Shown here: positions 7,178 through 60,100 of the stretch, one piece after another
How positions within the stretch are numbered: position 1 is the stretch's first letter
Layout of the letters: every line of letters begins with the position of its first letter
IMG/VR virus record: IMGVR_UViG_3300033143_001281
Location: 16,271 to 80,270 of that record
Direction: 5' to 3' (one strand)
Length of the DNA stretch: 64,000 nucleotides
From: a virus
The notes under the pieces: generated by a model
What the model was told of the DNA's origin: nothing
Seen by the model: only the letters and a program-made list of their open reading frames with translations
The model's database searches: none
Program-made: the position numbers and the translations under genes

Positions 7178-7187
7178 TATATAAAAA

Positions 7188-8004: not shown

Positions 8005-8020
8005 ACAAATTTTATTTATT

Positions 8021-9502: not shown

Positions 9503-9527
9503 TACATATTAATGTTTAAATTAATTA

Positions 9528-9557: not shown

Positions 9558-9571
9558 TTTATATATTCTTG

Positions 9572-9610
9572 TTTTTTTTGTATATTATCTATATAGTGTA
9601 TTAAAGTAAC
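9572..9610 (+). promoter_or_regulatory. Putative late promoter motif
   Basis: T8 followed by GTATATTAT (9580-9588), immediately downstream of a terminator and 28 bases before the ATG at 9616. A GTAAC occurs at 9606-9610, though not at the four-base spacing seen elsewhere. Confidence 0.5.
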
Positions 9611-9615
9611 AAAAA

Positions 9616-10191: not shown

Positions 10192-10203
10192 ACCAACAAT
10201 AGA

Positions 10204-10386
10204 ATGGCAAATTGTACCAAATGTAATAAAGTATTTACTTGTGGATGTCAAAAAGCTAGATCAAGTACAGGTGAACTTGTTTGTAAACCATGTGCAGCTA
10301 AAGAAAGAGCTGAAATGGATTTATCATCAAGAGATTTATCTTTAGAGTTAGCTAAACAACAAATACAAGATTTAAGAAATAAGTAA
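10204..10386 (+). CDS. Small putative zinc-ribbon protein
   Basis: 60 aa. The Cys pattern is CTKC, CGC, then CKPC (two CxxC pairs plus a CxC), which would suit one zinc site, followed by a charged helix (residues 35-60). The binding partner is unknown. It lies between two structural genes with spacings of 12 and 7 bases, so it is part of the same transcript. The zinc site is inferred from spacing alone. Confidence 0.55.
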   Translation: MANCTKCNKVFTCGCQKARSSTGELVCKPCAAKERAEMDLSSRDLSLELAKQQIQDLRNK

Positions 10387-10393
10387 AAGAAAT

Positions 10394-10936: not shown

Positions 10937-10970
10937 ATAAAGTAAAACAATAACAATAAATTAAATAATT

Positions 10971-13286: not shown

Positions 13287-13295
13287 TAAATATTC

Positions 13296-13330
13296 AGAGA
13301 GGATAATTAATTTTATCCTCTCTAAATTAT
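13296..13330 (+). terminator. Intrinsic terminator between the two fibres
   Basis: AGAGAGGATAA (13296-13306) and TTATCCTCTCT (13313-13323) form a perfect 11-bp stem with a 6-base loop. The sequence after it is AT-rich with short T runs, so termination may be partial. Confidence 0.75.
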
Positions 13331-13357
13331 TTTGTATTTTTGGTAAAAATTATATAG

Positions 13358-39616: not shown

Positions 39617-42600
39617 ATGGCAACATATATTAAAGGATCAGAATCTTTCTTACCGGATATTAAACCATTTACACCGGATTATAAATTTTTGTCTGCTGTT
39701 TTGCAAACAAGAACAGATAAGTATGATGCTAACTTTAAAGCAACTAATGATCTATATAATAAAGTTGTTTATGCAGATTTATCAAGAGAAGACACAAAAG
39801 AAAGAAGAGATCAATACGCAGACTTAATAAGTCCTCAGATAGAAAAAATATCTGGAATGGATTTATCTTTGGCACAAAATGCTGATGCAGCACGTAGTGT
39901 TTTTGCACCATTTTATGATGATGATTTAACTGTAAAAGATATTGTTTTTACATCTCAATATAGAGATGAAATGGCTTATGCGGATAGGTTAGCTGAGAGT
40001 TCAAATAAAGAAATGAATGAAAGATATTGGGAAACTGGTAGAAGAGGTTTACAATATAGAATGGATGATTTTATTAATGGATCTGCAGATCAAGCACTCC
40101 AAGCTAGTTTGCCTAAATACATAGAAGATGCTGATTTATATCAATTAGCTACAGATTATTTAGAATCTATGGAACCACCTTTGAGTGTTAAGATAGATCA
40201 TTATGGAGAAAATGCTGATGGTACAGCAAACACTGATTGGATTATTACTGAAAAAAATGGAAGATTGGTAACTGGTCAAGCACTACAAGCTGTACAAAAT
40301 GCATTACTAAATAATCCTAAAGTACAAGCTGCATATCAAGAAGATGCATTTGTAAAAAGTAGAGATTTTGCTGCTCAAGGTATGCAAGCAGGACAATTTT
40401 CTTCTGTAGAACAAGGTCAAAATGCTTGGGCAACTGAACAGATAAATATTATAAATAAACTTAATGATTCAGAAATAGAAGAAGCATCACAAAAGAATGA
40501 TCAAGCTCAAAGAGTAAATTTATATTGGCAAGACTATAAAAATAAAAATGGTATTATACCTGGTTCTGATATGGATGAAGCAATGAAAGAGCACGAAAGC
40601 ATTGCAGAAGCAACACAGAAAGCATTAGATGCTAAATTAAATATTAAACGTATAGGTGCAGCTCCTAAAAAAAGTATACAGGGTAATTTAAATAAAGCAT
40701 ACAATATGCTTATGAATTACAATATTGCTAGAGATATGAAAGCAGCTGCTGTAAATTATGGAGCCAGAGACCAAGAATACACAATGCGTGTTAATGAGAT
40801 TGCTTTATTTGAAAAGAAGAAAAAGTGGGATTTAGTAATGGAAAGAACTAGAGCTAGTAATAACATGGCTTTACAAAGACTTAAAAATAAAAATGCTAGA
40901 GACTTAGCAATTGAGAAAGGAGAAATAGTTGATAATTCTGGTAATCCAAATTCATTACAAAATAAATTAAAAAGAAGAGGTATAACTTTTAATGACCCTA
41001 ATACATTTACAGCAAAAACTGATAAAGATGGAGATGTTACTAGTAATGTAGATGTACCAGCTATGAATAGCGAAAGGTTTATTGAACTTGATAATAAAGT
41101 TTTTGAGCGTCAAGTAGATGCAATCCTAGATATGAAAAAAACTTTATACCCTGATGGTAATACACCAGCAAGAAATCAGACTTACAAGTTTGAGTACGAA
41201 GGTGCTATAATAGAAGGGACTGTAGAATCAATAAAGAAAAAGTTATTAGAAACAGTAAAAACTGAAGGAGATGAAGGTGGACCTACCGAATATGTTAATA
41301 GAGGTCTTGTAGCTTCTTTGTATGAAAAAGAAAGTGAATTATTTTTAAACAACCCAGAAGTAACAAAAAATATTAACCCTAATGCAACTGCTGATCCTAA
41401 TATACGTGGTCAATATGATGATCTTTATGATAGAATAGCGGGACCTAACAATAGCATTAATACTCAAATTGCTGGTTTACAAGCTGCTTATGGTAAAGTA
41501 AATGAATTAACTTTTAATGCTGGAGAACTTACTTATAAAGCATTACATGATATAAATAGTGGTTATGCTGGTGGATACAGCAAAGATGCATCAGATTTAC
41601 AAAAGGCAGGATGGCCATCAATTTTTGATGAGAATGGTGTATTGTTAAATAAAGATGAATATAGAAAACTAGTTGTAGCTGGCATTGAGAAAGGTGAGAT
41701 AACAAACCCAAATATATCTGGCTGGGATAGTGGCACTAACAACAAAGATTATAAAGCATTCCGTACTTATAGCAGAAGTGAAATGGATAATTTATATGGT
41801 TATGATCGTAATAATGCTTATGCTCAAGAAGTAAGAAAAAAGTATAGGAGTTTGATAGGTGGTGTTAATGAAGTACAAATGGCGGCTGTTAACAATGATC
41901 TAAATGCTTATTATGACATGCAGTACAATGCATTAAATAATGCTTTAACAGGTAAAAAAGGAAACATACCAACAGCATCTTTAAATACTGTGTTAGAAGG
42001 TGGTGATTATAATGTTGGAGATTTAATGATGAATCCAAGTTATAAATATTCTGTTAATCCATTAACTCCTAATATTGAAGCTGAAACAGAAGTTGGTAAC
42101 TTTTTGGATCAAATGGATCATTTAAATACTACAGGTAAAGGTTATGGTATTGTAGCAGGTGATATAGACGGATTAGATTCTGATGAATTATTATCTCAAC
42201 AAGCTGTTGCACAAAAAGTGCATAATTTATATATGGAAGATTTACAAAGTTGGTACAATAATCCAAAAAGATCTAATGCTGACAAGACTGCTCCAATAGC
42301 AACATATACTTATAATCCTGTTTATGGCAGGTCAGAAGATGGTAGAAAAACTACAGCAGCAGCTCAATGGTTATATAGCCCAGAGTGGTTAGCTTCTAAA
42401 GTTGTAGGTGGTAGTGATGTTAGCGACCAATATGGAGCATTAACAACAGATGATATTAAATTATTAAGTGATGCGGGTCAAAATGGAGAATCAGGAATTA
42501 CTATAATTTATGATCAAAAAGATGATATAAATCCAAATTCAAATGAGAATTTTTATGTTTCTAAAATAAATAGTGCAATTCTTCAAAATGGTAAAGGTTA

Positions 42601-42895
42601 TGCAGAATATTCATTACCAGATGGCATTGGTAATACTGTAGATTTTAGAGTAGTTAAAGATGGATCATTAGATTATAGATTAAATTATACTTTACAGACT
42701 TATGTCCCATACAATCCTACTACAGAAAGTGGTGGTAGTTATATAACAGAAACTCAAACTCAACCTATTGATATGTCCTATGGTATAAGAAAGCTTGATG
42801 AACAAGTATTTAATTTTTATGATTGGGCTAAGTCAAGAAGAGAAGAAAATAGATTGGCTCACAAAAGAGATCAAGAACAGTACGGAATAAAATAA
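39617..42895 (+). CDS. Large helical virion protein, probable cargo/internal protein
   Basis: 1092 aa, mostly helical and charged, no membrane segment. N-terminus MATYIKGSESFLPDIKPFTP, then a conserved-looking block DYKFLSAVLQTRTDKYDANF. Long helices occur at 250-420 (EEASQKNDQAQRVNLYWQDY). Its place just before the giant polymerase gene and after tail genes fits a head-cargo protein that is ejected with the DNA, as described for large proteins of phicrAss001. I recognise no enzyme motif. Confidence 0.5.
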   Translation: MATYIKGSESFLPDIKPFTPDYKFLSAVLQTRTDKYDANFKATNDLYNKVVYADLSREDTKERRDQYADLISPQIEKISGMDLSLAQNADAARSVFAPFYDDDLTVKDIVFTSQYRDEMAYADRLAESSNKEMNERYWETGRRGLQYRMDDFINGSADQALQASLPKYIEDADLYQLATDYLESMEPPLSVKIDHYGENADGTANTDWIITEKNGRLVTGQALQAVQNALLNNPKVQAAYQEDAFVKSRDFAAQGMQAGQFSSVEQGQNAWATEQINIINKLNDSEIEEASQKNDQAQRVNLYWQDYKNKNGIIPGSDMDEAMKEHESIAEATQKALDAKLNIKRIGAAPKKSIQGNLNKAYNMLMNYNIARDMKAAAVNYGARDQEYTMRVNEIALFEKKKKWDLVMERTRASNNMALQRLKNKNARDLAIEKGEIVDNSGNPNSLQNKLKRRGITFNDPNTFTAKTDKDGDVTSNVDVPAMNSERFIELDNKVFERQVDAILDMKKTLYPDGNTPARNQTYKFEYEGAIIEGTVESIKKKLLETVKTEGDEGGPTEYVNRGLVASLYEKESELFLNNPEVTKNINPNATADPNIRGQYDDLYDRIAGPNNSINTQIAGLQAAYGKVNELTFNAGELTYKALHDINSGYAGGYSKDASDLQKAGWPSIFDENGVLLNKDEYRKLVVAGIEKGEITNPNISGWDSGTNNKDYKAFRTYSRSEMDNLYGYDRNNAYAQEVRKKYRSLIGGVNEVQMAAVNNDLNAYYDMQYNALNNALTGKKGNIPTASLNTVLEGGDYNVGDLMMNPSYKYSVNPLTPNIEAETEVGNFLDQMDHLNTTGKGYGIVAGDIDGLDSDELLSQQAVAQKVHNLYMEDLQSWYNNPKRSNADKTAPIATYTYNPVYGRSEDGRKTTAAAQWLYSPEWLASKVVGGSDVSDQYGALTTDDIKLLSDAGQNGESGITIIYDQKDDINPNSNENFYVSKINSAILQNGKGYAEYSLPDGIGNTVDFRVVKDGSLDYRLNYTLQTYVPYNPTTESGGSYITETQTQPIDMSYGIRKLDEQVFNFYDWAKSRREENRLAHKRDQEQYGIK

Positions 42896-42902: not shown

Positions 42903-45900
42903 ATGGAGGATCAGTCTAACAAACCTTTAGCAAACACCATAGCTAATAATCAAAGAACTTCTAGTGTTATTCCACCAGGAGAATTTAATTTTATACCTAT
43001 AGAGGAAATGTTTGAAACACCAGAAACAGATCTGGCAAACGTTATTGCAACAGATCCTGGTGCTATAGCTCAAGTAGATAGGTATAAAGCAGACATAGAT
43101 AAATATGGTATACCTGCAATGGCAAGTTTAGGTACGGTTAGTCCATCTTTAGCAACAGGTAAATATAATCCAGTTGCTCAACAAAATCCCTCACAAGCTG
43201 CTTATCAAGAAGTTAAAAATATATTAACTGCTAAAAAAGACGGTCCCGGTGGTCAACGTGTTGCACCCAGATATGCAAGTATTAGACAAAGCAATTTCTT
43301 AAGATACTATGAACATCCAGAATTTGCTGATTTAGGTTTTACACCATATGCAAATATGGAAGAGTTCTATAATGCTAATTCTACAATATGGGATGATATG
43401 AGTAGAATGAGTGGTCAATTTGCAAGTCTTGCTGGATCAGGTTTTAATAGTGTATATAGATCTTATGGTGATATGTTTGGTGACGGAAGTTATTTATCAC
43501 AACCAGATTTAGAATCAGCTTTTGAATTTGAAGATGCAATGGCCATTGGTAATTCTAGTAGAGGTGGTGCATTAGGTTTTACAAATAATCTTTTATTAAA
43601 TAGTGCATATACATTTGGTATTATTGGATCTATTGCAGTAGAAGAATTAATATTAGCAGGTGCTGCAGCAGCACAAGGTTTTCTTAATCCAGCATCTGAT
43701 GCATTATTAGCAAGTAGATCAGTTGCAAACGTCAAACGTGCAGGTGATGCTATTAGTGGTTTATTTGATATGAAAAAAATGGCAGATGCTACACGTAATG
43801 CAATGAAAACATTAAGTGAGATAGATACTGCTAGAGATTTTTGGGCTGCAACACAAGGTACAAGAAAAGTTTTAGGTCAAGCCTTTACACCTAATACAAT
43901 GTATGCTTTAAAGAATTTTAAGAGTACAAAAAATGCAACTCAAAATGCTGTTAACTTAGCAAAAATGAAAGCTGGTTTTGGTGGCTTTTATAGAGATTTT
44001 AGAGCTGTCAATTTAGCTTTAGCTGAAAGTAAACTAGAAGGTGGTATGGTTTACAATGAGCTTATAAGAGAAGGTGTGAATATGGCACAAGCCAAAAGTG
44101 GTGTAACTGTAACTCCTGAAGAATTTGCTAGTATACAATCAAAAGCATCAGAGGGTGCGTTTTATACAACTATGGCAAATGCACCTATTATATATGCCAG
44201 TAACTGGTTTGTTTTAGGAAATGCCATGGGCGGATTCAATAGAAGCCTGGGTAGAGTTTTTGGAGAAACTTTTGAAAAAGGATTGAATGGTAGACTTTTT
44301 AAAGGTAAAGGAGTAAAAGATGCAGCAACGGGAAAAGTAAAAAATGTTTTTAAAGATGCTGGTACAGGTCTAGGAGGCTGGTGGACAAAAGTCAGAGCGG
44401 GTGGAGTAAAGGGTAATACCGGCAGGGCATTAGCAGCTAGTGCTAGATATTTTGCTGCAAACATTGCAGAAGGTATACAAGAAGTTGCACAAGAAGCTGT
44501 TTCAGCAGGAACTAAAGGTTACTATACTGCCCTATTAGATGATCCGTTGGCAGGTGGTGTAGCATTAAGAAATCAATATATTGCTTCTGGAATGTCTAGC
44601 CAGTTTAGTGGTCAAGGAGCAGAAACTTTTTTATCTGGTTTTTTAATGGGTGGTATTGTACAAGGACCACAGAAATTATTTTTTCAAGGTATACCTGCTT
44701 TATATCAAAGAATAAGTGATCCTAAAGCTTATAAAGAGTATCAAGAAATTAAAGATAAGTATGTTAAAGATTTAGTCACTGTGCATAATGAAGCATGGAA
44801 CGCACAGGCTGATGATCCAGGATCAGTGTTTGATCCTCAAAAATTAAATTTCTTTTTTCAAAAACAGGCTGCTGCTGAAATGAAAAAGAATGTATTTAAT
44901 CAAGATAGATTTGGATTTCAAGATGAAAAAGATGGAGCTAAGTTTCATCAGATGTATACTATTTTTAGAACTGGCACATCAGAACTGTTTAAAAATCAAT
45001 TGAGAGATTATTTAAAAATGACTGATGCAGAATTAGCACAGGCGTTTCCATCTAGTAAAGCTGATGTAAAGAGTGGAAAGATAAGATCAAGATTAGAAAA
45101 ATTTATTACACAAATAGATAAGGCAGAAGCTGATTACATTAGAAGAAAAGATGATAATAAAAATCCTTTTGATCCAAGCCAGTTTAATAAAGAGACAGAA
45201 AAAAGACAGTATATACAAGAAGTTTTAAAAAGTCAAGCATGGGAGCATGCTAATTACTTGTATATGTTTACTGAAAATGGATTTCAACGTGCTCTAGAAA
45301 GAGCTAATAGTATATATACTGAATTAGCTAATGATCCTTTGTTTGATGGTATGGCTGCTAGTGATGTGACTGTATTATTAGATCCTGATTCTATAAGTAA
45401 TGAATTATTTTTACTATCAAAAGATATATTAGTTTTAGATGATTCAACAGAACAAGGTAAGAAAGATAAAAAAAGATTAGAAGGTAAATTAGAAAGACTA
45501 AAAGAGATTCAAAAAGTTTTATCTGATAAAAATCTACTTAACAATGATGGTACTTTTGATAAAAGAAAACTGGGTAGCAAACTTTTACCTGTGTTTGAAA
45601 AGTACATAAAGTATTTAGCAAATAGCAAAAATACATTTGCTGATAAGTCTAAAATAAAAGAAGCACTAAAAAAAATGATAGATTATGGTGCACTTAAAGG
45701 TAGAGCAAGAGTATATGATAAAGCAATTGAGTACTTAGCTAATCCAGAAAGATTTAATGAGATTGTTAATAGACAAATAGAAGTTAATAAAAATATATAT
45801 AGAAGTTTATCTTCTAATTTTGAAAAACAAATAAAAAAATATTTAAATGTTGCAGAGGCCAATGAGCTAATGAATCAACTTTTTAAAAGAGGTTATGTTG

Positions 45901-48900
45901 GTGATCCAGAAAATGTAAAAGGTTTTTTACAAACTGGAGATGTAAGATATTTAAATGCAATGACTTTTTACAACGAACAAGGTCAAATTGATAAAAAGGT
46001 TGATAAAGTTAAGTATGATGAAATACAAAGATTACTTGATGTCTATAGGAACAATCAAGAAAAAACTGAAGAGTCAGAACAATCTCCTAAAGAAGAAAAT
46101 CAAAAGGAGGATATTACACAGGCAAAAACAGCACAAGATCAAGTTTTAGATGATGCATCTATAGATGTTATATTACCTGAAACAAATAATACAAGAATGC
46201 TAAATGAGCTTTTAAAAAGACAGTATTCTAAGTATTCTGCTACACAAACAGTTTTAGGAGAAAACGTATTGACCTTTGAAGAGTGGAGAAATGCTGAGGG
46301 TGCAATATGGCAAAACACATTTAATGCTTTAAAAAAATTATGGGCATCTGGTAAACTACCAGTTTTAGATGCACAAGGTAATGCAGCTTACGTAAATGTA
46401 ACAGAAGATCAATTACTAAATGAACTAGGTTTTGATGCATGGTTAAAGTCTAGAGAAGTAAGAGAAAATGATTTAGTAAGTGAAATTTTACAATCAGCTA
46501 ATGTTTCTTTGGATGAAATAATTGCACCTACACAGAAACAAACAACTAAAGAAGATATAACTAAAGGAAAAAATAATGTTGATATATATAAAGAAGGTGC
46601 ACGTGTTAACGTTATTAAAGTTACAACTATAGATGAAAATGGAAAACCTGTTGCATTTTTTAAACTAGTAGATCCAAAGGGTAATGATTTATCAGCAGAC
46701 TTGCTTGGTTTGATAGATAGCAAATATGAAGGTACATATCCCACATCAAAAGAAGCTGTACAAGCACAAGAAGCTTTAGAAAAACAAGCACCCGATAATG
46801 CACCTTTTAAATTTGATAATGAAGAATTAAATCAAGGAATGCTTGTTTATAGAAATGGTAAGGAGTATGTTGTAATAAGTACACCTAGATCTATTTCAGG
46901 TGGTAAGTTGCGTTTAAGAATTAATGATGGAAGTAATAAGATAACAGTTATAAATAGGGGAGAGTTTGCCGGAAGATTTACTAAACAAGAAATCAAATAT
47001 GATTTTGATCCTACTAATGCAAGAGTAAATATTCAAAAAATAAATCAAATATATCCTCATGCTAATACTGTTGATGGTCAAAGAAATTATACTGAGGCTT
47101 CTAAAAGATTAGATTTGATATTACAAATCTTAGATGAAACAGATTTAAAAAATTTAAATTTAGTTATAGAAGCAGATCCGAAAGGTGGTGTAGATCAGGG
47201 TCAGTTTACTATGGAAGGTAAAAACCCAAATAAATATGTTAAAGTAAAAACATCTGCATATAGAATAGGTTTAGCAGCAGGAAGTCAAGAAACACAGAAA
47301 AGAATAAATGATGCATTGCTTAAGAATGGTATAAAACTTTCAGATAATCCAAATGGTATTTTTGCTTATATACCAAATGATGTATTTGAAATGATAGATG
47401 CAGAAGGAAATCCTGTAGAAAATCTTAGCACAATAACTCCTGATCTTGCTAATAGTACATTGTTTGTTAGCAAAGCACTTAGAGATAGTTTAACAAAACA
47501 AGAAATATTAAATTTAGCAAGAAGTAATTTTGCTCTTAATAAGTTAATTACTATTGAAGCAACAAATGCACTTGCTAAATCTGAAGGTGCAATAGCTTTT
47601 GTGCCTGTAGATAAATTAGATTTTAACTTTTCACTTTTAGTTTCTGGAGGTAATGTTGTTTATGATAATAGTTCAGTTAGATCTTTGTCTTCATTAAAAT
47701 ATCAACATGCTGATGAAAATGGCAACTATTTAATATATGATCTTAAAAAACTAAAAGGTGGTAAGGTAACAGAGAGCACTATTACTAATTTGGAAGGTAA
47801 AGAAGCTAGAGAACTAGAAGCTAAGGTTGAGGCTGGTCTTGAAGCGTCTGGACAAAATGGAATATTAGAAGCAGCTAGAGATAGATATATGGCTGCAGTT
47901 TTGTTACCTAATGGAGCATATAGATTAGTTCCTTTGAAAGCAGGTACTATGACAGCAGAAATGCGTGCTGAGTTAGCTGTAAAACTTATTGAGCGTGCAG
48001 AGTTAACAAAAAAAGAAAATTTAGACAAGAAGGGCAAAGAAAAAAGTTTATCATACAACTATAAATATAATGATAATCTAAGTGAAGGATTGTTTATTTC
48101 TACTATACCGGGTTATAAAATATCATTACAAGTAGATCCATGGGGAAAGATACAAATGCAGCTTTATGATAAAAATCTAGGTAAGCAAGTGGGTAAAACA
48201 ATTAGCGTTGAAGTTAAAGATATAGACTTGCTTAAACTTCAAGATGATCCTTCTCAAGCTGTAACACTAATGCAAGAGTTGGTTACCAAATTTAATAGTG
48301 ATGAAGATATTAAAGCAACCGAAGTAAAACTAACAAATAAAAATTTTAGAACAAGTTTTCCTGATGCAGCAACTGTTAATGATATAATTAATAAAACAAC
48401 TACTAATGTAGTAGGACAAGTCATAGATACTTTTCAAGCCCAAGTATTTTCTTCTTCGGATGTTATACAAGCAATGGTTGATTTAGAAATGACAACAGTA
48501 GCTTCTGAAAGTCAAACTGATCCTTTACTACAAGAGCAAGAAGAAATACAAGATGTTTTGTCTTTAGAGTCTTATAGTGAAGAAGAGTTTAAAGATTTAG
48601 AAAATAATGGTTTTGAAGATATATCAAGAAAACAATTAGAAGTAATAGTAGATAAACTCACACAACCTGTACCAGCAGCATTAACTGAAAGAGAGAAAGA
48701 AGTCTATTCTTATAGGTCTGATATGATTGATTCAATGGAAGCAATCAAAAGAGAAAAAGAAAATCTTAATCAGGATAGCTCAGACCAGCCTATTAAATCT
48801 AGCACGGATGGAAGAAGTGCTGGTGTAAAACAAATAATATCTATCTATGTTGGAGGACAATTATTTTTTAATATAAATGCTTCAGGCTTTGAAATAGCAG

Positions 48901-51900
48901 AAGCTTTTAGTGCTAATGGGGTAACGTTACAGGAAGCTAAAGCCGCAATACCTGGTTTAGATGGAAAATTGAAAGCTTGGTTTCAAAGAGGTATTGATTA
49001 TTTAGAAGGTGATATCAGTGAGCTTGAAAGTCTAAAACAAAAACTTGAAGCACTAAAATCTGAATTAGTAAAAGATATATCTCCAAAAAATAGACGTAAA
49101 GTTCTTAGAGAAAATGAAGAATATCAAAAACTTTTAAAACAAGTTAAAGATATTGAACAAAAAGGTGCTAACAAGATACTTTCACCAGAGCAGTTATCTC
49201 AATCTGATGAAACAGATATCAATGTATTTACTAAATGGGCAGAAGAAAATCTACCAAGTTATATCAATATAGCTGATATAAATACTCTTGGTAACAACAT
49301 GAAAGCTGGTGGTGTACGTGTTGGTGCTTTTGTTTTAGCACTAGATCAACTAGCATCTGGACTAAACCTACAAGGTACAATATATACATCAGCTACTAGT
49401 CCTTATAAATATCATGAAGCTTTTCATGGTGTGTTTAGAATGTTATTAACTGATGTAGAAATTAATCAGTATATAAATATTGCTAGAAAAGAGGTGAGAG
49501 CAAAACTTAGATCTGAGGGTAAAAGTTTTGAAGCTGAACTAAAGAAATTTAGAAATTCTGCTAATACATATACTAATATGTCAGAATCAGAATTAATAAG
49601 AGAATATTATGAAGAGTATTTAGCTGATGAGTTTGAAAAATTTAAGACAGATCCAACTAATACTAAAACAGATTCTTCAGTTAAGTCTTTATTTACTAGA
49701 ATATTGGACTGGATTAAATCTATATTTAGTGTTAAATCACAGAATGAACTTCAAACATTATTTCAAAATATTGATTCTGGTAAATTTAGAAATGCTGAAA
49801 TTCAAAGAAATCAATTTACTATTTACCCGGAAAACGGGTATATATTAGAAGCAAATGCTATTATACCTTATGCATCAGAGCAAGTAGATAATAAGGTTGG
49901 GTATATTTATTTAGACAGTGATATAGCAGATCCTATGTTACGAAACATAAGTGCTATGTATTTATCTAGAACTTCTGAGCTTAAAGAAGCATATAATCCC
50001 GGAAAAGTTTTAGATGAGTTAATAGATGATTTTGCATGGTTATATAGTCCAGAAAATCCTATAAATGCAGAAAGAAGTGAAATGCAGTTAGATAAGCTTA
50101 GACAAATTGAAAACGCTTTTGATAATTACTCACAGGAAATAAAGGATCAAGTTGTTAAGTTTTTAACTAGTATTAGTGATAATGTATCTGGAGAAAATCT
50201 TGACGCAGCAGAATTTGAAGACTCAAAAGAGTTAAGAAAAACAACAGAGTATGACAAAGATGCTTCTATGATAGGAGGATTTAGATCTTTAAGTTCTTCT
50301 ATAAGACAGTATATTGCTACAACAACATTAGAAGAAACGGATTACTTTGGGAATGTTGAACTTACAGATGGAGAACCATTAATTATAGCTGTTGATTTTA
50401 TTAATGCATACAATGGATTATTAAAAGCAGTCAAGAGTAAATCAGATCCAAAAGCTATATTACAAAGCATGTATTTCTTTGGTCAGGATAATGCTCATGC
50501 AGGTGCTGTTGTAAGAAGAATATTAAAGGATGTTGGTATAACTGAAGAGCAGTTGCTTTCAGAGAAAACTCTTCCAAAACAAATAGCTAATCCATTATTA
50601 TTTCAATCTATATTAAAAGGTTTTGAAAACTTTAGAGTAGATTATTTATTTAATGAGCGTGATGATAAGGGTAATGTTATTATATACTCTGCAGCTGAAA
50701 GAGATGATAGAAATTCTCAGTTGGATAATTGGAAACAAGCATATATATACAAAAGAAAACAACTTGTATCTAATAGAGATAGAAAAAGAAGATTGAATAT
50801 ATTATTAAAAGATATATCAGATGATATAAGAATAACTAATAAATCTATTACAAACAAAAAGCTCAAAGAAGATGCACAAAGATATTCTCAAGAGTTATTT
50901 GATTTAGTTGGTATAAAATTGAGCCCTTTATATTTACAATTTAATATGGTCTATAACAGATCTAAGTTAACTGTTAAACAAAAAGCATTATTAAATTTTG
51001 ATAAGGATGCCAACCCATTGACTGAAGATCTTGATGGTAAGGCTTATAAGGTTAATTCAATAGACATGCTTAATCTTTTAACTAAAGCTGATAGTGATAT
51101 ATTTGAGAGAGGTGATGAAGGTATGGATAGTAGGTTAAAAGCAATGGCTATTGGTAATAGCTCTTTTGATGAGACTGTTGGTGCAACTGTATTTAAAAAC
51201 CCAAATGGCGATTTAGTATATGCACATCAGATGCCTACATATCACTTGAGAAAAGTTGCTGAACTTAATGATCCAAGTAAGTTAGAAGCTCTTATTACTT
51301 CTGATCCTTATTTGGCTAATAACTTTTTGTTAAACAGCAGCGCTTTTAAAAATTTATCAAAAGAACGCAAACTAAAAGTATTAAGAATTGCAGGTACTAA
51401 AATTTCTGATTTAATAAAAGCAAATCAAGAACAAGATGAAAGTTTAGGTAAGACTAAAGATAGTTCATCTTATGGTGATTATACACCACAAGAGTTTACT
51501 CTTAATCTAATTAATAATTATACAGCTTTATTAAATAATAGAAGTTACAAGGTTACTTCTGTTGATTCATTAGATAAAAATGGTAATGAGGTATTAACAG
51601 CATTAGCTCCAGTTTTAATTAGAGTTATGGAAGCATCTAATACAGGAGATATGATAAATCTACCTGTTATTAAGACAGTTGATTTTAATGGTAAAGAATC
51701 TAAAATAACTGAAGAGGTTGTAGATATTTACATTGATCAAATAAGATCTGAGTTTCAAAGGATTGTTAGAGAAAGCAATGAAAAAACTAAGACAAAAGAA
51801 CTTATAGAAGGTTATAATACACCGGGTGGTAGAGCATTTCAGTTTTTTAATAGTGGTTTGTTAATTGGATCACCAGCTTTAAAAAAGCAATTGGTTGAAG

Positions 51901-52175
51901 CAGCAATAAATGCTGGTAAGACAAATACAAAATTAACTTTAGATGAAGCAATAGAGGGATTAGTTATACAAGTAGCTCCAACACAACAAACTAGTGAGGT
52001 AATAAATATATATGCAGGAACAAATGAAAATGCTGAGTTAAGTAATTTTGCAAAAAGACCTTTTGCTAGTGAGCTTATAGATGGGCAGTCTAAATATGGT
52101 AATTTTATTTTTAATACTGTACTCCAAGTTATTTTAATGAAGAAGGATTGCTTACAAAAGAAGGGGAAAAACTGA
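42903..52175 (+). CDS. Giant virion protein, N-terminal part: zincin protease and first half of a NADAR domain
   Basis: 3090 codons in this frame, starting at ATG 42903 (atATGGAGGATC), 8 bases after the previous stop. Residues 100-170 (APRYASIRQSNFLRYYEHPE) resemble the start of large crAss-like proteins. A hydrophobic stretch lies at 225-265 (AYTFGIIGSIAVEELILAGA), possibly membrane-active. A Glu/Lys linker lies near 1055-1080. A gluzincin-type site has H2171-E-A-F-H2175 and a Glu-rich helix about 65 residues later (EEYLADEF), the usual third ligand. Residues 3035-3075 (INIYAGTNENAELSNFAKRP) begin a NADAR domain. The frame then breaks at about 52115-52135 and the protein very likely continues in the next frame, giving about 4.75 thousand residues in total. 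It is probably packaged and ejected. Confidence 0.7.
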   Translation: MEDQSNKPLANTIANNQRTSSVIPPGEFNFIPIEEMFETPETDLANVIATDPGAIAQVDRYKADIDKYGIPAMASLGTVSPSLATGKYNPVAQQNPSQAAYQEVKNILTAKKDGPGGQRVAPRYASIRQSNFLRYYEHPEFADLGFTPYANMEEFYNANSTIWDDMSRMSGQFASLAGSGFNSVYRSYGDMFGDGSYLSQPDLESAFEFEDAMAIGNSSRGGALGFTNNLLLNSAYTFGIIGSIAVEELILAGAAAAQGFLNPASDALLASRSVANVKRAGDAISGLFDMKKMADATRNAMKTLSEIDTARDFWAATQGTRKVLGQAFTPNTMYALKNFKSTKNATQNAVNLAKMKAGFGGFYRDFRAVNLALAESKLEGGMVYNELIREGVNMAQAKSGVTVTPEEFASIQSKASEGAFYTTMANAPIIYASNWFVLGNAMGGFNRSLGRVFGETFEKGLNGRLFKGKGVKDAATGKVKNVFKDAGTGLGGWWTKVRAGGVKGNTGRALAASARYFAANIAEGIQEVAQEAVSAGTKGYYTALLDDPLAGGVALRNQYIASGMSSQFSGQGAETFLSGFLMGGIVQGPQKLFFQGIPALYQRISDPKAYKEYQEIKDKYVKDLVTVHNEAWNAQADDPGSVFDPQKLNFFFQKQAAAEMKKNVFNQDRFGFQDEKDGAKFHQMYTIFRTGTSELFKNQLRDYLKMTDAELAQAFPSSKADVKSGKIRSRLEKFITQIDKAEADYIRRKDDNKNPFDPSQFNKETEKRQYIQEVLKSQAWEHANYLYMFTENGFQRALERANSIYTELANDPLFDGMAASDVTVLLDPDSISNELFLLSKDILVLDDSTEQGKKDKKRLEGKLERLKEIQKVLSDKNLLNNDGTFDKRKLGSKLLPVFEKYIKYLANSKNTFADKSKIKEALKKMIDYGALKGRARVYDKAIEYLANPERFNEIVNRQIEVNKNIYRSLSSNFEKQIKKYLNVAEANELMNQLFKRGYVGDPENVKGFLQTGDVRYLNAMTFYNEQGQIDKKVDKVKYDEIQRLLDVYRNNQEKTEESEQSPKEENQKEDITQAKTAQDQVLDDASIDVILPETNNTRMLNELLKRQYSKYSATQTVLGENVLTFEEWRNAEGAIWQNTFNALKKLWASGKLPVLDAQGNAAYVNVTEDQLLNELGFDAWLKSREVRENDLVSEILQSANVSLDEIIAPTQKQTTKEDITKGKNNVDIYKEGARVNVIKVTTIDENGKPVAFFKLVDPKGNDLSADLLGLIDSKYEGTYPTSKEAVQAQEALEKQAPDNAPFKFDNEELNQGMLVYRNGKEYVVISTPRSISGGKLRLRINDGSNKITVINRGEFAGRFTKQEIKYDFDPTNARVNIQKINQIYPHANTVDGQRNYTEASKRLDLILQILDETDLKNLNLVIEADPKGGVDQGQFTMEGKNPNKYVKVKTSAYRIGLAAGSQETQKRINDALLKNGIKLSDNPNGIFAYIPNDVFEMIDAEGNPVENLSTITPDLANSTLFVSKALRDSLTKQEILNLARSNFALNKLITIEATNALAKSEGAIAFVPVDKLDFNFSLLVSGGNVVYDNSSVRSLSSLKYQHADENGNYLIYDLKKLKGGKVTESTITNLEGKEARELEAKVEAGLEASGQNGILEAARDRYMAAVLLPNGAYRLVPLKAGTMTAEMRAELAVKLIERAELTKKENLDKKGKEKSLSYNYKYNDNLSEGLFISTIPGYKISLQVDPWGKIQMQLYDKNLGKQVGKTISVEVKDIDLLKLQDDPSQAVTLMQELVTKFNSDEDIKATEVKLTNKNFRTSFPDAATVNDIINKTTTNVVGQVIDTFQAQVFSSSDVIQAMVDLEMTTVASESQTDPLLQEQEEIQDVLSLESYSEEEFKDLENNGFEDISRKQLEVIVDKLTQPVPAALTEREKEVYSYRSDMIDSMEAIKREKENLNQDSSDQPIKSSTDGRSAGVKQIISIYVGGQLFFNINASGFEIAEAFSANGVTLQEAKAAIPGLDGKLKAWFQRGIDYLEGDISELESLKQKLEALKSELVKDISPKNRRKVLRENEEYQKLLKQVKDIEQKGANKILSPEQLSQSDETDINVFTKWAEENLPSYINIADINTLGNNMKAGGVRVGAFVLALDQLASGLNLQGTIYTSATSPYKYHEAFHGVFRMLLTDVEINQYINIARKEVRAKLRSEGKSFEAELKKFRNSANTYTNMSESELIREYYEEYLADEFEKFKTDPTNTKTDSSVKSLFTRILDWIKSIFSVKSQNELQTLFQNIDSGKFRNAEIQRNQFTIYPENGYILEANAIIPYASEQVDNKVGYIYLDSDIADPMLRNISAMYLSRTSELKEAYNPGKVLDELIDDFAWLYSPENPINAERSEMQLDKLRQIENAFDNYSQEIKDQVVKFLTSISDNVSGENLDAAEFEDSKELRKTTEYDKDASMIGGFRSLSSSIRQYIATTTLEETDYFGNVELTDGEPLIIAVDFINAYNGLLKAVKSKSDPKAILQSMYFFGQDNAHAGAVVRRILKDVGITEEQLLSEKTLPKQIANPLLFQSILKGFENFRVDYLFNERDDKGNVIIYSAAERDDRNSQLDNWKQAYIYKRKQLVSNRDRKRRLNILLKDISDDIRITNKSITNKKLKEDAQRYSQELFDLVGIKLSPLYLQFNMVYNRSKLTVKQKALLNFDKDANPLTEDLDGKAYKVNSIDMLNLLTKADSDIFERGDEGMDSRLKAMAIGNSSFDETVGATVFKNPNGDLVYAHQMPTYHLRKVAELNDPSKLEALITSDPYLANNFLLNSSAFKNLSKERKLKVLRIAGTKISDLIKANQEQDESLGKTKDSSSYGDYTPQEFTLNLINNYTALLNNRSYKVTSVDSLDKNGNEVLTALAPVLIRVMEASNTGDMINLPVIKTVDFNGKESKITEEVVDIYIDQIRSEFQRIVRESNEKTKTKELIEGYNTPGGRAFQFFNSGLLIGSPALKKQLVEAAINAGKTNTKLTLDEAIEGLVIQVAPTQQTSEVINIYAGTNENAELSNFAKRPFASELIDGQSKYGNFIFNTVLQVILMKKDCLQKKGKN

Positions 52176-55100
52176 TTGCTGATTTAAGTAAAGCTACTGG
52201 AGCACAAGCTAAATCAATAGGTAGAAAAATAAAGGGGTTAGATGTAAAAAGATGGGATAGTCTATCAGAAGGAATTATGAAAGGTTTAATTAAAGAATCT
52301 TTTGAACAAAACCCTAAAGCTCTTGAGAAACTATTAGCTACAGGTAATGCTACATTAACTCATACACAAGATAAGACTAAGTACCGTGAATTGTTTCCTA
52401 AAATATTAATGGAAGTAAGACAAGAGTTAGGTGGTTCTCAACCAACACAACAAGCTAGTGAGGTTGTAGGAATGACAGCTTTAAGAAAATCTGTTGTTGA
52501 TAATTTAGAAAAAGAGTTTAGTGAATTTAGAAAAGAAATAAATGAACTTAATATATCTGATAAAATATCTAAGCAAATAGCAGAAGGACCAACAGTTGCA
52601 GCAGGTGTAAGTAGAAGAGAACTTACTAAATCTCAGGAACAATTAAATTTAGTTACTAATAATCCTAATCATAATTTAAAACAAGTATTTTTTAATGATT
52701 GGATAAATACAATGGCTATAAATGAAATATTACTTGGAGATCAAGCTATTTCACTATCTAGCCCAGTAGATAAAATTAAAAGAGCTAAAATGCAAAATGC
52801 TGCTTACTTTAGTGCAGCATCTGCTATTTCCGCTCCTGAACAAGGTGTACATCATCCTGTTAAAGATATAAGTTTGGTAGCTTTAGAAGAGCCTGTTAGT
52901 CCTGACGGTATTGACTTGGCGGATGCACAAATGTATATTACCACAAAAGCATTTAGATATATGTGGTTTGGTTTTGGAAAGCTCACTGATGCACAAGCTG
53001 AATTACTTGATTTAATAGATGAGGGTCAAGAAATAACATCTTATTCTGTTTTTGGTGACAAAGAAAACACCCAGGCATACGCTAAAATGCAAGCATTATT
53101 AAATTCAAAAAAGCTTATATATGGTGATGGTAGTACATTCTTAAAAATGTCTGCATTTACTTTAACTAAAAACTTTACTTCTATTCAGAACCCAGAAACT
53201 AAAAAGTGGGAACCAAGACCTAATAGAGTACAGTTACATAACTTAAGAGAAAAGTTAGAAGCAATAGAAAATGAGAAAGGTAATCAGACACTAGGGATTG
53301 CTGCACCATTGAGTGCAATTAAAATGAAAAAGCAAAAAGTAAATGAGCTAACAGATTTAGATAATTCTAATCCATTTACTAATGGCTATACAAATTTAGA
53401 TGCTTCATTTATGGGTCTGCAGCAATTAAATGTTTCAAATAAATTGGAACAAGTTGATCCAACACAAATCAAACAAATTATAACATCTGAACAAGATCCA
53501 AAGACACATGTTCCTGGATTAATGATGAACGTTGGAGATATAATTACAGAATATAATAAAGCAATAAGTAAGAGAGTTACAATTAAATTCCAAAACAAAA
53601 AGAACTTAACCTTCTCTTATGAAACCGCAATGGATGAATTTGAGATGTCCAAAGATGCTGGTTCTATTACTCCAAAATTGTCTGCATATTTAAATTTTGC
53701 AATAAACGGATTACAAGCATCTCAGTCTAGTAGTCAACTATTAGAGTTCTTTTCTATGGACAATGGTGTTCAAGAGTATAACTTAAATAATCCTATAACT
53801 TCTAAAAAGTTTGAACAATTATTTCTAAGTTATTTTAGTAAAGGTGTTTTCTCTGAAAGAATACCAGGTTTAGCATTGACTTTAGTATCTGATTTTGGTA
53901 ATCAAGTATATAGAAGAGTATACGAAGTTGAGATAGTAGATGGAAAAACTATACCGGTAAGATCTGAGATTATAAGAGAAAAAAGTTGGAAAGGAAATAG
54001 TAATGATATACAAGACTTAAATACCTTAACTCCAGAATCTGAAGGTTTGTCTGAAGGTATTGTAGTTTTAGATAGACTTAGACACGGTCTTAAAGAATAT
54101 AAAGATATTACTGATCCAGATTCATATACAGGACAAAGATTTACAGAGATGATGATGCCAAGTCATCATAAATCTGTGATGGATATGATAGAAAATAAAC
54201 CTAATGCAAAAATGCCTGATGTAATATCTAAAATGTTTGCTATTAGAATACCTTCACAGGATAATCATTCAGCAATGAATGTAAAGTGGGTTGATTTTTT
54301 ACCTGTTTATTATGGATCATCAGCTATGTTTGCAAGAGAGTTGGTAGAGATATCAGGTGCTGATTTTGATATTGATAAAGTATTTGCACAAATAAAAGAT
54401 TTTTACGTTGAGTCAGGTGAGTTTAAAGAATATGGAAGAGCCGTTGGCATGGCTGAAAAGCATAAAGACTATCTTAGATATATTACTAGAGAAGTACAAA
54501 AGCCTGGTAATACATATTATGAAGCATATCAAACTTATATTAGAAATCAAAATGCAAGTGAAATAGATAATAGTGTTGAGACAGATGTTTTAACTGATCA
54601 GGGTTTAATTTCACAAGAAGGATTAATAGCATTAGAAATGTTAGGTTTGCCTAAAACTTTAGAAGAATATAATAATTACTATAAGAAATTTCAAGGAGAA
54701 CCATATGAAGCGCCTTATAATAATGACATACTAGATTATAGATATGCTTTATTAGGTAATGATAATGTAACATCTGGTGATAATCCTATATCATATACCC
54801 CAGCTACAGTAAATATAATCAAAGATGTTTTATCAGAACTATCGGGACAGTCTAAAGTATTCAAGGATAGAATGGAAGAAGACAGTGTAGAAGTTGATAA
54901 TATATTAGGAAAAATAAAAGCTTTCAAAGCAAATAAGGGAGCATCAATTGGTGCTGTAGTATTACCTAACTTATATTTAAGTTTATTAACTGAGTATGGT
55001 ATTACCTTAAAAAATCCCATACGAATAAATGGTAAAGATTACTTTGACTATAAAGAAACATTAGATGACAATGGTAATAGAAAACAAGATACAATATCTG

Positions 55101-57166
55101 CTTTGATTACTATGGCAACAGATAATGCAAAAGATAGGTTGTTATCTAAACTAGGACTTAATAGACACTCATTGGGTATTGTTGCTAATTTAACAGCTTT
55201 AGGTATAAATCTAAAAACATCAACTCTTTTAGTCAATCACCCTACTATACAAAAATTATATAATGAAGCTCTAAATAAATCAGAGAAAACTGATCCAGGA
55301 ATTAAAAAGTTGGTGCAAGATTTTATAGAGTCTACTACAGACGTCAATGAGTTATTAGAAGTTACTGATGAGTTATTATTAGATAATATAAATCAACCAC
55401 AAAATATTTCTAAACAAGATAATCTTAGTGTATTATCAGTATTTTTTGAGGCAATAAAATTAAAAGACTTTACTGGAAAAATGGGTGCAGCTACTAGCTT
55501 AACAAAAGGTATTGGTAGAAACATGGCAGAAGTAAAAGAAAAATATAAAAAGATTGCTGAGCTTACAGATAAAGATGCTCCAATGGATCTAAATGCAATT
55601 TATAAAAGCAATACTTGGTACAGTCAATATAACAGAATGTTTAATCAACTTGTAGAACAACTGCTTCCTGCTGTAGTTCTAAGATCAAATGCATCTTTTA
55701 CTAGTATATTAGATCGTGCATTAGAAACTATGAATACAGAAAGCAGACAGTTTACATCTGAAGTAGAAGAAGACGTATCATTAGATTTACTTTCATATTT
55801 GACAATAAAAGCATACCAAAAAAATATGCTAGATAATGGAACACTTGATCAAAAAAGTTTTAGCAATGATTTAATATATCCTTCTGAATATAATATTACT
55901 GATGTTATAGCTGATCTTAAAGAAATACAATCTTCATTGGGTCAAGAAAATTTATTTTTAGATGATTATGTAATACCTGAAAAATCTAGTGATGTAGGAA
56001 ATTCAACAGGTCTTAATTTAGCAAATGCAAATACTTTTAGAAATTTAAGTAAACAACAAAAAATAGATCTTCAAAATGATTTTTCTAAATTATTTGGATC
56101 ATTAACAACAAGGGGTGCTGCTAAAACACTAATTAACTATATGATGGTGAAAGATGGATTCCAACTTAGATATGGTTCATTGTTGTCATCTATTAGTCCT
56201 TTTGTTTTAAATGATTATTTATCTACTATTAATTCTGTTGAGTCAGCGCTCAAAGGTGCATCTACTTTTGAATCTGTTTTTGGGATGAGTCAAGATAACT
56301 TAGCTGAAGAGTTTAGAGATAATTATCTAAGGTCTAATATAAGTGGTAGACTTCTTAAAACTTATAATCAAAGTCCTATTACTAGAGGGTTTGGTAATAA
56401 AAAAGAAAAAATAATTTTTAATAGACAAGAGGGTATATTAAAGATGAATAATGTAACCATGCAGGTTCCAAAAATGTTTATAAGAGTTCAAACTATAGAA
56501 GGTGCAACCATAACTTTAATGCTTGATAGAGAAGCAACAAAAGATAAAAAACTAGTATATAATGTTATTGAAACATATGGTTCTAATAGTCAAACTGGTA
56601 TAGGTTTTATTTTTGGTGATAGACCCACCCATAGAGAAGTAAGAAATTATGTTAGAAATAAAGGTAATGATGTAAATCAAGATCCTGATGCAAGCATAAG
56701 CTTTGATGCTATGGATGGTGCAAAAGCTGTACAAGCTGAGATATTACAATCAGAAAATATTAATATTACTGCTGATGAAAATTCTATCATGGTTAAGTTA
56801 GATCCAGAAGCACAAGAAACTGATATAGCAAACACAAACTTACTACTTGAACAGCTTGGTTTAAATGAGGTAGCTAAAGACCAAGATGAGTTAGAAGCAA
56901 ATGTTATTGAAGATGTTGATACTTCTTTACCTGATGTTGACGAAGGAGAAGCACAATTAAGTCTCAATTTTGAACAAGAGTTGGATGAACAATATCCTGA
57001 AATAACTGAGTTTTGGGATACAGTAATATCACCAGATAAAAAAGCTTTAGAAAATTTAAGAGCAAATAATATTGTATCTTTGGAAGACTTGATTGAAGAA
57101 TATAATAGAGGAACTTACGCTAGCATAGCAGAGTTTATAGATCAAATAAAAAATTGTAACTTATAA
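52148..57166 (+). CDS. Giant virion protein, C-terminal part: rest of NADAR domain and virion RNA polymerase DFDID block
   Basis: 1672 codons. A TTG at 52148 opens the frame formally, but the open frame extends back to about 52115 (YFNEEGLLTKEG), so this is the continuation of the upstream frame. Residues 15-105 complete the NADAR domain (KSIGRKIKGLDVKRWDS, ESFEQNPKALEKLLATGNAT, LTHTQDK, ILMEVRQEL). Near residues 690-745 the order RIPSQDNHSAMNVKW, VDFLPVYYG, ISGADFDIDKVF matches the second double-psi barrel of cellular-type RNA polymerases and of the crAss-like virion polymerase (DxDxD metal-binding motif, here D739, D741, D743). In phage phi14:2 this enzyme is ejected and transcribes early genes. 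The remainder is helical, with an acidic C-terminus. Confidence 0.65.
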   Translation: MLTKEGEKLIADLSKATGAQAKSIGRKIKGLDVKRWDSLSEGIMKGLIKESFEQNPKALEKLLATGNATLTHTQDKTKYRELFPKILMEVRQELGGSQPTQQASEVVGMTALRKSVVDNLEKEFSEFRKEINELNISDKISKQIAEGPTVAAGVSRRELTKSQEQLNLVTNNPNHNLKQVFFNDWINTMAINEILLGDQAISLSSPVDKIKRAKMQNAAYFSAASAISAPEQGVHHPVKDISLVALEEPVSPDGIDLADAQMYITTKAFRYMWFGFGKLTDAQAELLDLIDEGQEITSYSVFGDKENTQAYAKMQALLNSKKLIYGDGSTFLKMSAFTLTKNFTSIQNPETKKWEPRPNRVQLHNLREKLEAIENEKGNQTLGIAAPLSAIKMKKQKVNELTDLDNSNPFTNGYTNLDASFMGLQQLNVSNKLEQVDPTQIKQIITSEQDPKTHVPGLMMNVGDIITEYNKAISKRVTIKFQNKKNLTFSYETAMDEFEMSKDAGSITPKLSAYLNFAINGLQASQSSSQLLEFFSMDNGVQEYNLNNPITSKKFEQLFLSYFSKGVFSERIPGLALTLVSDFGNQVYRRVYEVEIVDGKTIPVRSEIIREKSWKGNSNDIQDLNTLTPESEGLSEGIVVLDRLRHGLKEYKDITDPDSYTGQRFTEMMMPSHHKSVMDMIENKPNAKMPDVISKMFAIRIPSQDNHSAMNVKWVDFLPVYYGSSAMFARELVEISGADFDIDKVFAQIKDFYVESGEFKEYGRAVGMAEKHKDYLRYITREVQKPGNTYYEAYQTYIRNQNASEIDNSVETDVLTDQGLISQEGLIALEMLGLPKTLEEYNNYYKKFQGEPYEAPYNNDILDYRYALLGNDNVTSGDNPISYTPATVNIIKDVLSELSGQSKVFKDRMEEDSVEVDNILGKIKAFKANKGASIGAVVLPNLYLSLLTEYGITLKNPIRINGKDYFDYKETLDDNGNRKQDTISALITMATDNAKDRLLSKLGLNRHSLGIVANLTALGINLKTSTLLVNHPTIQKLYNEALNKSEKTDPGIKKLVQDFIESTTDVNELLEVTDELLLDNINQPQNISKQDNLSVLSVFFEAIKLKDFTGKMGAATSLTKGIGRNMAEVKEKYKKIAELTDKDAPMDLNAIYKSNTWYSQYNRMFNQLVEQLLPAVVLRSNASFTSILDRALETMNTESRQFTSEVEEDVSLDLLSYLTIKAYQKNMLDNGTLDQKSFSNDLIYPSEYNITDVIADLKEIQSSLGQENLFLDDYVIPEKSSDVGNSTGLNLANANTFRNLSKQQKIDLQNDFSKLFGSLTTRGAAKTLINYMMVKDGFQLRYGSLLSSISPFVLNDYLSTINSVESALKGASTFESVFGMSQDNLAEEFRDNYLRSNISGRLLKTYNQSPITRGFGNKKEKIIFNRQEGILKMNNVTMQVPKMFIRVQTIEGATITLMLDREATKDKKLVYNVIETYGSNSQTGIGFIFGDRPTHREVRNYVRNKGNDVNQDPDASISFDAMDGAKAVQAEILQSENINITADENSIMVKLDPEAQETDIANTNLLLEQLGLNEVAKDQDELEANVIEDVDTSLPDVDEGEAQLSLNFEQELDEQYPEITEFWDTVISPDKKALENLRANNIVSLEDLIEEYNRGTYASIAEFIDQIKNCNL

Positions 57167-57169: not shown

Positions 57170-60100
57170 ATGGCACGTTGTCCTAATAAAAATACAGCAG
57201 AGTATAAAGCTCTTAAAGAAGTTTTTAAAACAGAAATTATTACAAATAATGTAATTAATAACTGGCAAGATCTTAATAATGTAGATACATTTCCTAGTGT
57301 TATACAAGCACAAGATATGTTAAGGAACCAAAGACTTGCAATGAACTTAAAAAAAAGACAATTTGGTGAATCTTTATTAAATAATTTAAGAAGAGAAAGA
57401 ATAGGTCACAGCTACAAAAACAAATTTTATATTAATAATTCTAATCCTAATACAGGTTTATTTGATGAGTTATTTTTAAGTAAAAACATTAAGAGGCTTA
57501 ATAGATATCTTGATGTTAATAATATTCCTTCAAATAGAATTACATTAGAAAGAACAGCTAAAACATATAGATTAACTGTTAATGATGATTTGTTTACAAC
57601 AAACGATATGCTTGAGTCTTCTAGATCTTGGGATACACCAAGAGCAAGAAGTATTGTAAAACATCTTAGGAGAATGTTTCCTCAAGTAAATATAGAGATG
57701 CTTTCTGTTGCAGAAGCAAAAGAGATGTATAAGTCAATGCCTGAATGGAAAAAGTCAAACACCCCTTTTGATAAAGTTAATTCTTTTTATGTTGATGGAG
57801 TTGCTTATTTAATTAAAGGAAGAGTAACAGATGAAATTGCTATTGAAGAAATGTTACATCCATTTGTTGATGCTATAAAAGCAGATAATGAAGATTTGTT
57901 TAACTCATTACTTAAAGAAGCAAATAGTAATTTCCCAGAGATGGTACAAGAAATTGCTGATTCATATAATTTAGATAGAAGGTTTAGTCAACTTGATAGA
58001 GATTTAGAGATTGTTACTCAAGCTTTATCAAGACATTTTAATAATCAATATGAAAAAGAAGGTGGACCAAGCCGAGGATTTTTAAATAAAATAAAAGAGG
58101 TCATTCAATGGTTTGCAAATATCATTAAAAATTTTAATGAGTATTTAACAGGAAGACCATTAGACGTATCATCCATTAATGATACAGCAACATTAACTGA
58201 TATTGCAAAACTTTTAAACACAGAAGGTATACAATTTAAACTTGAGTCACGAGTTAATGGCAAGATTAGATATAGTTTATCTCCTGAAAAAAAGAAAGCG
58301 CTTGACATACAGCGTAATTCTGCAAATGAAATTCAGAAGCAAGTATTAAATAAACTGTTTAATGTTGTAGAGTCAAGCAAAGAAGAGTTTGATTCATTAT
58401 CAGCAAATCTAAATGATACTAGTAATCCTAGCATTGTTATTTTAAATGAAAAGGATCATACATATTATAATATTACTACAGGAGAAGTTTACACTTCCGT
58501 GACTACTGCTATTAAAGGGAGATTGAAAAATCAAGAAGATGTTCAACTTAATTTGGATGTTGGTAATGATGTAGATGCAATTCTTGATTCAGTTATTGCT
58601 GGTGAATCTCCTGCAGAAGTACAATCAAAACTCAGTATTTTGACACCAGAAATGGCTGAGCAAGTATATGCACAGTTAGAAACTACATTAGATATGATTA
58701 TGCCTGAAGGTTCTATAGCATTATCACAGGTTGTTTTATTTGATGAGAACACTAGTTTAGCAGGAACAGCAGACTTACTTATTATTGATAGAAATGGTTT
58801 TATTAGAATTGTTGATTTAAAAACTAGTAAGAACTCAATTAAATCTAGATATGTAACTGATAAAATTACTGGTAGAAGTGAATTTAAAAAGTATGATAAG
58901 AGTTGGGATATTGTACCATCAGATCAAGATGTCATAAAAGATTTACAAGACAATAACGTTAAAAAAGAAAACGGTAAAAAATATTCTAAAGAACAAATTG
59001 AAAATAGAAAGAAAGAGTTATCTCCTTTATTGTATGAAAAAGCAGGTGTAGAAAAACTATCTACTAGAGAACAACACAACCTTCAAGTAAATTTATATAG
59101 AAGGATGGTTGAGAATATGGGCTATAAAGTCTTTCAAGGAGAAGGGGCTTCCACCACTATTCATTTTGTTGCTGATATAACAGGAAAAGGTAAAGATCAA
59201 AAATTTAATGGTAATATTAAACCTGACGGTAGAATAGATCATCCGCCTTCAGAAAATTTAATTTATGTAAATAAACTAATACCTGAAAACTTAGATAACA
59301 TTGAAAAGGATAAACTTGAAAGTGCAGTTAAAAATGCTGAAGATCAAATACTAGATGCAGAACAATTAGCTGTAGACTCTGAGCAAGAAGCAGATACCGT
59401 TGATGCACAACAGTATCCAGAGTACAATACTATTTTAGCAGCACTTGAAAACTATAGATTAGGTTTAGTTGATAGAAGAAAAGCACTAGATCAAGTTAAA
59501 AAAAGTATTTACAGTGATAGAACAAAAAAAGAGCAACGTGAGCAAATTGCAAGTCATCTAGCATATATTGGTATTGCAATAAGTGAAGGACCTATAGCAC
59601 AATCAAAAGCATATTCTTCTTTATTACGTGATGCATTAAAGGAAATTAGAAAGTTTTCTGCATATGTACAAGATCCTTCAAACTTTGGTAAGACAGAGTA
59701 CATAACATATGTCTTAAATTTTGATAGGTTTGCAAAAACATTTGTTGGATTATACTCTATTGAGCAGTCTAATGAATTAAATGCAACTCAACGTTCTTTA
59801 GTTTTATCTTTACAGTTAGAACTTAATAAGCTAACTGGTGGTGACAAAAAAGGAGAAGGTATAATTAATCAAGCAATTTCTGATTATGTAAAAGAAACTA
59901 TCCGAACAAGATCTAGTAATGAATTTGGAGTAGATGGTAGTGCATTTACTAAAGAAGATCTTGATATGGTTATGGAAATGGCAAGAGATATAAACGGTAC
60001 AGAGCTACAAACTAGAGATTTAGATACTTCACCGGATGTTCTTTTAGGAGTTATGGCAAAAATATACAAGGCCAAAAAACAAGAACTATTGGACAGAGTT

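Follow-up and report, generated by a model that had tools for sequence, protein, structure and literature searches.

A fused crAss-type virion RNA polymerase of an environmental crassvirus with a NADAR insertion between copies of a DNA-conserved joint

The giant polymerase reading frame

The window, which is the whole 64,000-nucleotide stretch analysed here, comes from a viral record of 80,270 bp (IMGVR_UViG_3300033143_001281, positions 16271-80270). It encodes on its plus strand a giant protein of a known kind, a fused crassvirus virion polymerase, which shows two features not met with in the literature consulted: a recurrent NADAR insertion and a joint conserved at the DNA level. As assembled, the giant is split into two frames. 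ORF1 (42903..52175, 3090 aa) contains a gp47-like half, a zincin-like region, the N-terminal polymerase region and the first part of the NADAR, and ORF2 (52148..57166, in a frame open from 52115) contains the remaining NADAR, the catalytic part of the polymerase and a variable C-terminal tail. The single giant frame described by the first-pass annotation is therefore not found in the window itself, but it is present in the near-identical contig IMGVR_UViG_3300033388_000570 (L001) and in most of the fetched relatives. ORF1 shows no significant family in Pfam or PHROGs and no match by megablast against phage records, and an Rfam scan over 39000-64000 gave no match.

The HEAFH motif of the zincin-like region and the DFDID motif of the polymerase are located in one ORF at 148 of the 160 fetched relative loci, most of these ORFs ranging from 4,200 to 5,900 aa; the 160 loci include some contigs fetched twice and represent dozens of non-redundant phages. 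Among the remaining 12 loci, several are truncated at a contig end or show a variant of the motif. Since a frame of more than 4,000 codons joining both motifs recurs in most of the fetched relatives, the giant frame is not a product of chance, and the zincin-polymerase fusion is ordinary in this environmental clade rather than special to the window phage. After removal of near copies, 64 zincin sequences and 76 polymerase ORFs were left.

In profile comparisons, the giant after about residue 2310 matches the catalytic polymerases gp50 of crAss001 and gp66 of phi14:2, with a family-family match of probability 100 (E=5.9e-41). The DFDID block already seen from the sequence is located at 54362..54376, and is a DxDxD motif within the conserved polymerase core. 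An alignment of 60 polymerase sequences matches PDB 6vr4 with a profile E=8.9e-15, and the modelled core (52670..56254; pLDDT 85.9, pTM 0.86) has 6vr4_A as its best PDB match (fold E=6.9e-30, TM 0.68), followed by QDE-1. These profile and fold matches strongly support the identification of a crAss-type virion RNA polymerase of the phi14:2 gp66 type.

NADAR cassette and frame break

The NADAR cassette (52001..52441) is a pure insertion relative to the clade profile, which it interrupts cleanly at 2932/2931. The window reaches 36.7 bits against Pfam NADAR when the whole record is searched (cut-off 35.1), and the relatives L001 and cr126_1 reach 43.5 and 57.5, respectively; in PADLOC, the NADAR part weakly matches a candidate family. 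Within the clade set, NADAR is found in the window and L001 only and is absent from the other fetched giant proteins. The NADAR reported by the first-pass annotation is confirmed. It straddles the break and is not a separate domain next to it; the annotation overlooked that this domain was inserted recently, between repeats, and is itself the part that is broken.

A search for the NADAR subfamily gave 65 loci. DFDID is also present in 52 of the 64 scored NADAR ORFs, and 53 of the 64 show either DFDID or a match to an RNAP profile, a fused share that is a biased estimate, as the search was seeded with polymerase-fused NADARs. Relative to DFDID, the NADAR lies as far as 1994 aa ahead or as far as 1537 aa behind, and in cr126_1 it is found at the N-terminus of the polymerase. 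The upstream placement requires six changes when traced on the NADAR tree, and well-supported branches force at least three of these. The Glu and Lys of VExxFQxxK, a Trp and the phage-type last His are invariant in all 65 aligned subfamily sequences, L001 included; the window NADAR lacks the first two of these catalytic residues, which fall in a missing segment.

Contig L001 shows one continuous ORF (716-14944, 4742 codons) and, away from the junction, is mismatched to the window at four positions over about 21.7 kb (~99.97% identity). Relative to L001, the window has a deletion of 34 bp between 52121 and 52122, inside the NADAR core, which shifts the frame. L001 itself is without a different segment of 69 bp (23 codons, in-frame), which is present in the window about 65 bp further on. 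Both lesions fall inside the NADAR and each removes conserved active-site residues: on a published residue map (PMC11543638), the first catalytic Glu and the VExxFQxxK Lys fall in the stretch missing from the window, and the KxxGR Lys and Gly in that missing from L001. An exact search with the NADAR DNA of the window found the contig of L001 as its sole match and no undamaged copy from the same population. As both known copies are damaged, the NADAR may be useless to the phage or decaying.

No polymerase could be made from the genome in its assembled form, and the record thus carries either a private null mutation or a fault of assembly. Chances are about even that the break arose in assembly or sequencing and that the real phage has a continuous frame and an intact NADAR. 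The closely related giants are all continuous (4610-4775 codons in relatives at 46-58% identity), and L001, only four substitutions away elsewhere, carries another lesion at the same spot, as if this spot assembled badly. Against an artefact, neither deletion shows microhomology at its ends, as read by eye from the alignment, and short-read graph assembly seldom yields such joins without supporting reads; moreover, the lesion of L001 preserves the frame, as selection would. Programmed frameshifting from ORF1 to ORF2, for which the overlap of about 60 bases between the two frames might speak, is very improbable and was rejected, since no slippery heptamer lies in the right phase within the overlap (the sole heptamer-like string, at 52164, is out of phase), the relatives do without any shift, and the conserved residues missing relative to L001 account for the break. 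Another relative (L063:3851-17508) is also broken, between an ORF of 3261 aa with the zincin and an ORF of 1304 aa with the polymerase.

gp47-like half, zincin-like region and known systems

Residues 1 to about 2310 of the giant align with crAss001 gp47 in profile-profile comparison. The zincin-like region (residues 2080-2340, 49140..49922) is the C-terminal domain of this gp47-like half, and crAss001 gp47 holds HEAFH in its own C-terminus, which shows 29% identity to the region by tblastn. The HEAFH...EEYLADEF arrangement noticed at first reading is present: HEAFH is at residue 2171 (49413..49427), and YYEEYLADEF downstream contains an invariant Glu-Glu (49611..49616; E158 and E159 of alignment A4, 63 sequences) which is a candidate third zinc ligand. 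The HExxH residues and the downstream Glu-Glu are invariant in A4, and HExxH is found in every properly aligned relative. The zincin assignment stands on this motif set and the gp47 homology, but not on the fold: the model of the region is poor (pLDDT 62) and the fold search gave no meaningful PDB match. A weak profile lead to the Pro-Pro endopeptidase 6fpc (E=0.024) aligns its HExxH with HEAFH, and a Pfam scan of the 63 zincin members gave no peptidase among the matches listed, only scattered weak unrelated ones. Taken with the homology to gp47, the invariant motifs support the HEAFH region as a probable zincin, for which enzyme activity is predicted.

In phi14:2, the genes g067, g066 and g065 follow in this order on one strand, which gives the giant the look of a fusion between adjacent genes. 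Profile comparisons detected no direct homology between the first half of the giant and g067, and g067, at the corresponding place in the gene order, contains no HExxH. The C-terminal part of g067 (L012:11808-13070) resembles by eye a GNAT acetyltransferase, and a weak GNAT match is also found in a module of L146.

The giant shares with phi14:2 gp66 (6vr4) and crAss001 gp50 the DFDID motif, the fold and the place in the transcription block beside gp47- and gp49-like proteins. The first-pass statement that such parts are separate genes elsewhere holds for these two phages, in contrast to the giant, which is fused to the gp47-like half and zincin and carries the NADAR insertion. However, it does not extend to the Suoliviridae phage cr131_1, in which, with TAG read as Gln, HEAFH and polymerase are joined in a single frame that runs as far as an intron-like interruption. 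The giant fused RNAPs of Suoliviridae, for example cr131_1 gp50/gp48, also show a NADAR; cr131_1 differs by the sense TAG, the likely intron inside DxDxD and the position of the NADAR, far downstream of the catalytic motif. The polymerase frame of cr131_1 is split between GSD and FDID (L013:16317-17112) by the likely intron, which contains a homing-endonuclease-like ORF. RNAP genes of crAss phages reach about 6000 aa according to a review (PMC10136315).

N4-like virion RNAPs and polyvalent proteins (PMC5512222) are likewise ejected giants joining polymerase, zincin and conflict domains, with autoprocessing proposed; the N4 polymerase is T7-like, whereas that of the giant is of the two-barrel crAss type, and the words NADAR and crAssphage are absent from that paper. 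As in polyvalent effectors, the chain contains several unrelated enzymatic domains which vary between relatives: the zincin motif, the polymerase and the NADAR in the window, and DUF7831, P-loop and unnamed modules in relatives.

The first-pass annotation proposed a self-processing, ejected polyprotein. In such a reading, the zincin would cut the giant, in the head or after ejection, into a gp47-like half and a polymerase. The zincin is located at the boundary of these two parts in profile comparisons, its metal-binding residues are conserved, and N4-like virion polymerases, for which autoproteolysis has been suggested, are described as always fused to a zincin (PMC5512222). Self-processing is a conceivable reading, somewhat less likely than not, as the zincin of crAss001 lies at the end of gp47, which is made apart from the polymerase there, and is therefore not needed to part the two, and g067 of phi14:2 is without the motif.

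Repeat joint and proposed exchange of modules

The NADAR cassette is flanked by two copies of a 23-bp direct repeat, the joint: the first (51978..52000) encodes PTQQTSEV and the second (52442..52464), identical in 22 of 23 positions, encodes PTQQASEV. In the relative L002 the site is empty and holds the 20-nt core of the joint as a single perfect copy. A search for the joint ACACAACAAACTAGTGAGGT, allowing up to three mismatches, gave 21 copies in 15 of the 63 non-redundant relatives, all of them in the same frame of the coding strand and none on the other strand. Among the first 30 loci, the real joint had 11 matches, whereas shuffled patterns gave 0.01 on average. Ser is encoded by AGT in 22 of 22 distinct contexts and Glu by GAG in 18 of 22, these codons having usages of 27% and 24%, respectively; the contexts are partly related by descent, and this codon bias is hence given without a probability.

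The site occupied by the NADAR in the window (middle site) carries other modules in L017 and L020, and in L113 it is filled by several modules in a row, one of them P-loop kinase-like. DUF7831 modules are found in L113, in the tail of L081 and, more weakly, in the tail of L091. Homologous modules occupy the middle and the tail sites in three pairs: the NADAR of the window and that of L209 (56%), an unnamed module of L020 and L082 (65%), and another module of L113 and L030 (75%). In L059 (3044-20770), a giant ORF of 5909 aa shows a stretch of 1242 residues between the middle-site anchors. The giant ORF of L113 (4622-14506) has no zincin, its first 1713 residues are unrelated to the relatives, and its row of modules precedes the joint; from the joint onward, it is 76-78% identical to L018 and L021, and L113 is either a recombinant or an assembly chimera.

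That the repeats are merely a conserved protein linker (PTQQTSEV) with no role in domain exchange would agree with the location of all 21 copies of the non-redundant set in the coding frame, and, with the joint limited to 15 of the 63 non-redundant relatives, shared linker ancestry could explain part of the pattern. A linker alone is nevertheless an unlikely explanation, because the choice of AGT and GAG is conserved beyond need and the middle and tail sites are occupied by homologous modules. A broader proposal, put forward tentatively and with slightly less than even confidence, is that the virion RNAP of environmental crassviruses is a loading platform, on which joints conserved as DNA mark recombination sites exchanging counter-defence cassettes that would be delivered together with early transcription.

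Proposed role at entry

The reading preferred here, which is probable and falls well short of certainty, is that the gp47-like and zincin half fused to the virion RNAP is packaged and ejected for early transcription, and that the giant also carries swappable accessory domains, probably for counter-defence. Products of crAss001 gp47, gp49 and gp50 were detected in virions by mass spectrometry (PMC10172136), and g065-g067 of phi14:2 are likewise virion proteins by mass spectrometry according to the phi14:2 record; we infer the ejection of the giant from these virion homologues. The giant would be packaged in the capsid, would be ejected ahead of or with the DNA and then refold, and the ejected polymerase would transcribe the early genes. 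Modules such as NADAR would be gained or lost at linker sites between copies of the short DNA joint.

NADAR can strip ADP-ribose from guanines (PMC11543638), and its chemistry is also described in PMC11125620. On the polymerase, an intact NADAR might strip the ADP-ribose of a DarT1-like toxin from guanines of the incoming DNA, and the template would stay readable. The domain resembles phage NADARs of the T4 gp30.3 type and DarT1-associated antitoxins in its Pfam NADAR match and in the phage-type His of the last conserved motif, but these are free-standing, whereas the domain described here is embedded in a virion polymerase and its window copy is without active-site residues. Phage NADARs have been argued to act mainly on soluble ADP-ribose derivatives (Iyer et al., 2022; PMC9503650). 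In another study, the NADAR of a phage was active in vitro yet did not protect cells from DarT1 (PMC11125620).

If this reading is true, the start of crassvirus transcription is joined to the evasion of defence at entry, themes which are usually treated apart, and a NADAR arriving with the polymerase would be active ahead of any phage gene expression. The joint would then be a testable rule for the gain and loss of domains in giant ejected proteins, and reading the sequence between joints would offer a route to unknown counter-defence domains. A literature search for crassviruses with NADAR or domain shuffling found nothing relevant; its coverage was partial and priority is not fully established.

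Genomic context

The window phage shows a crass-type portal, major head protein, TerL and transcription block, which place it in Crassvirales. The portal (128-2704) has as its best isolate match, with 32%, the cyanobacterial Leptolyngbya phage Lbo-JY46. Upstream of the giant and on its strand, an ORF of 1092 aa (39617..42895) without Pfam or PHROG match probably encodes another virion or cargo protein, judging by its position and the crAss001 gene order. Downstream, an ORF on the same strand (57170..62947) encodes an RNAP-associated protein of the same type as crAss001 gp49 and phi14:2 g065. It contains a PDDEXK domain together with a degenerate zincin motif, and matches crAss001 gp49 (hhalign probability 99.3), PF12705 and phrog_298. 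Its copy of the motif is EEMLH, and the corresponding strings are EEFAH in crAss001 gp49 and EEAGH in cr126_1. In five of five compared proteins, the first His of the zincin motif is replaced by Glu (EEMLH or EEVLH); phi14:2 g065 keeps HEIMH and cr131_1 gp47 keeps HELLH.
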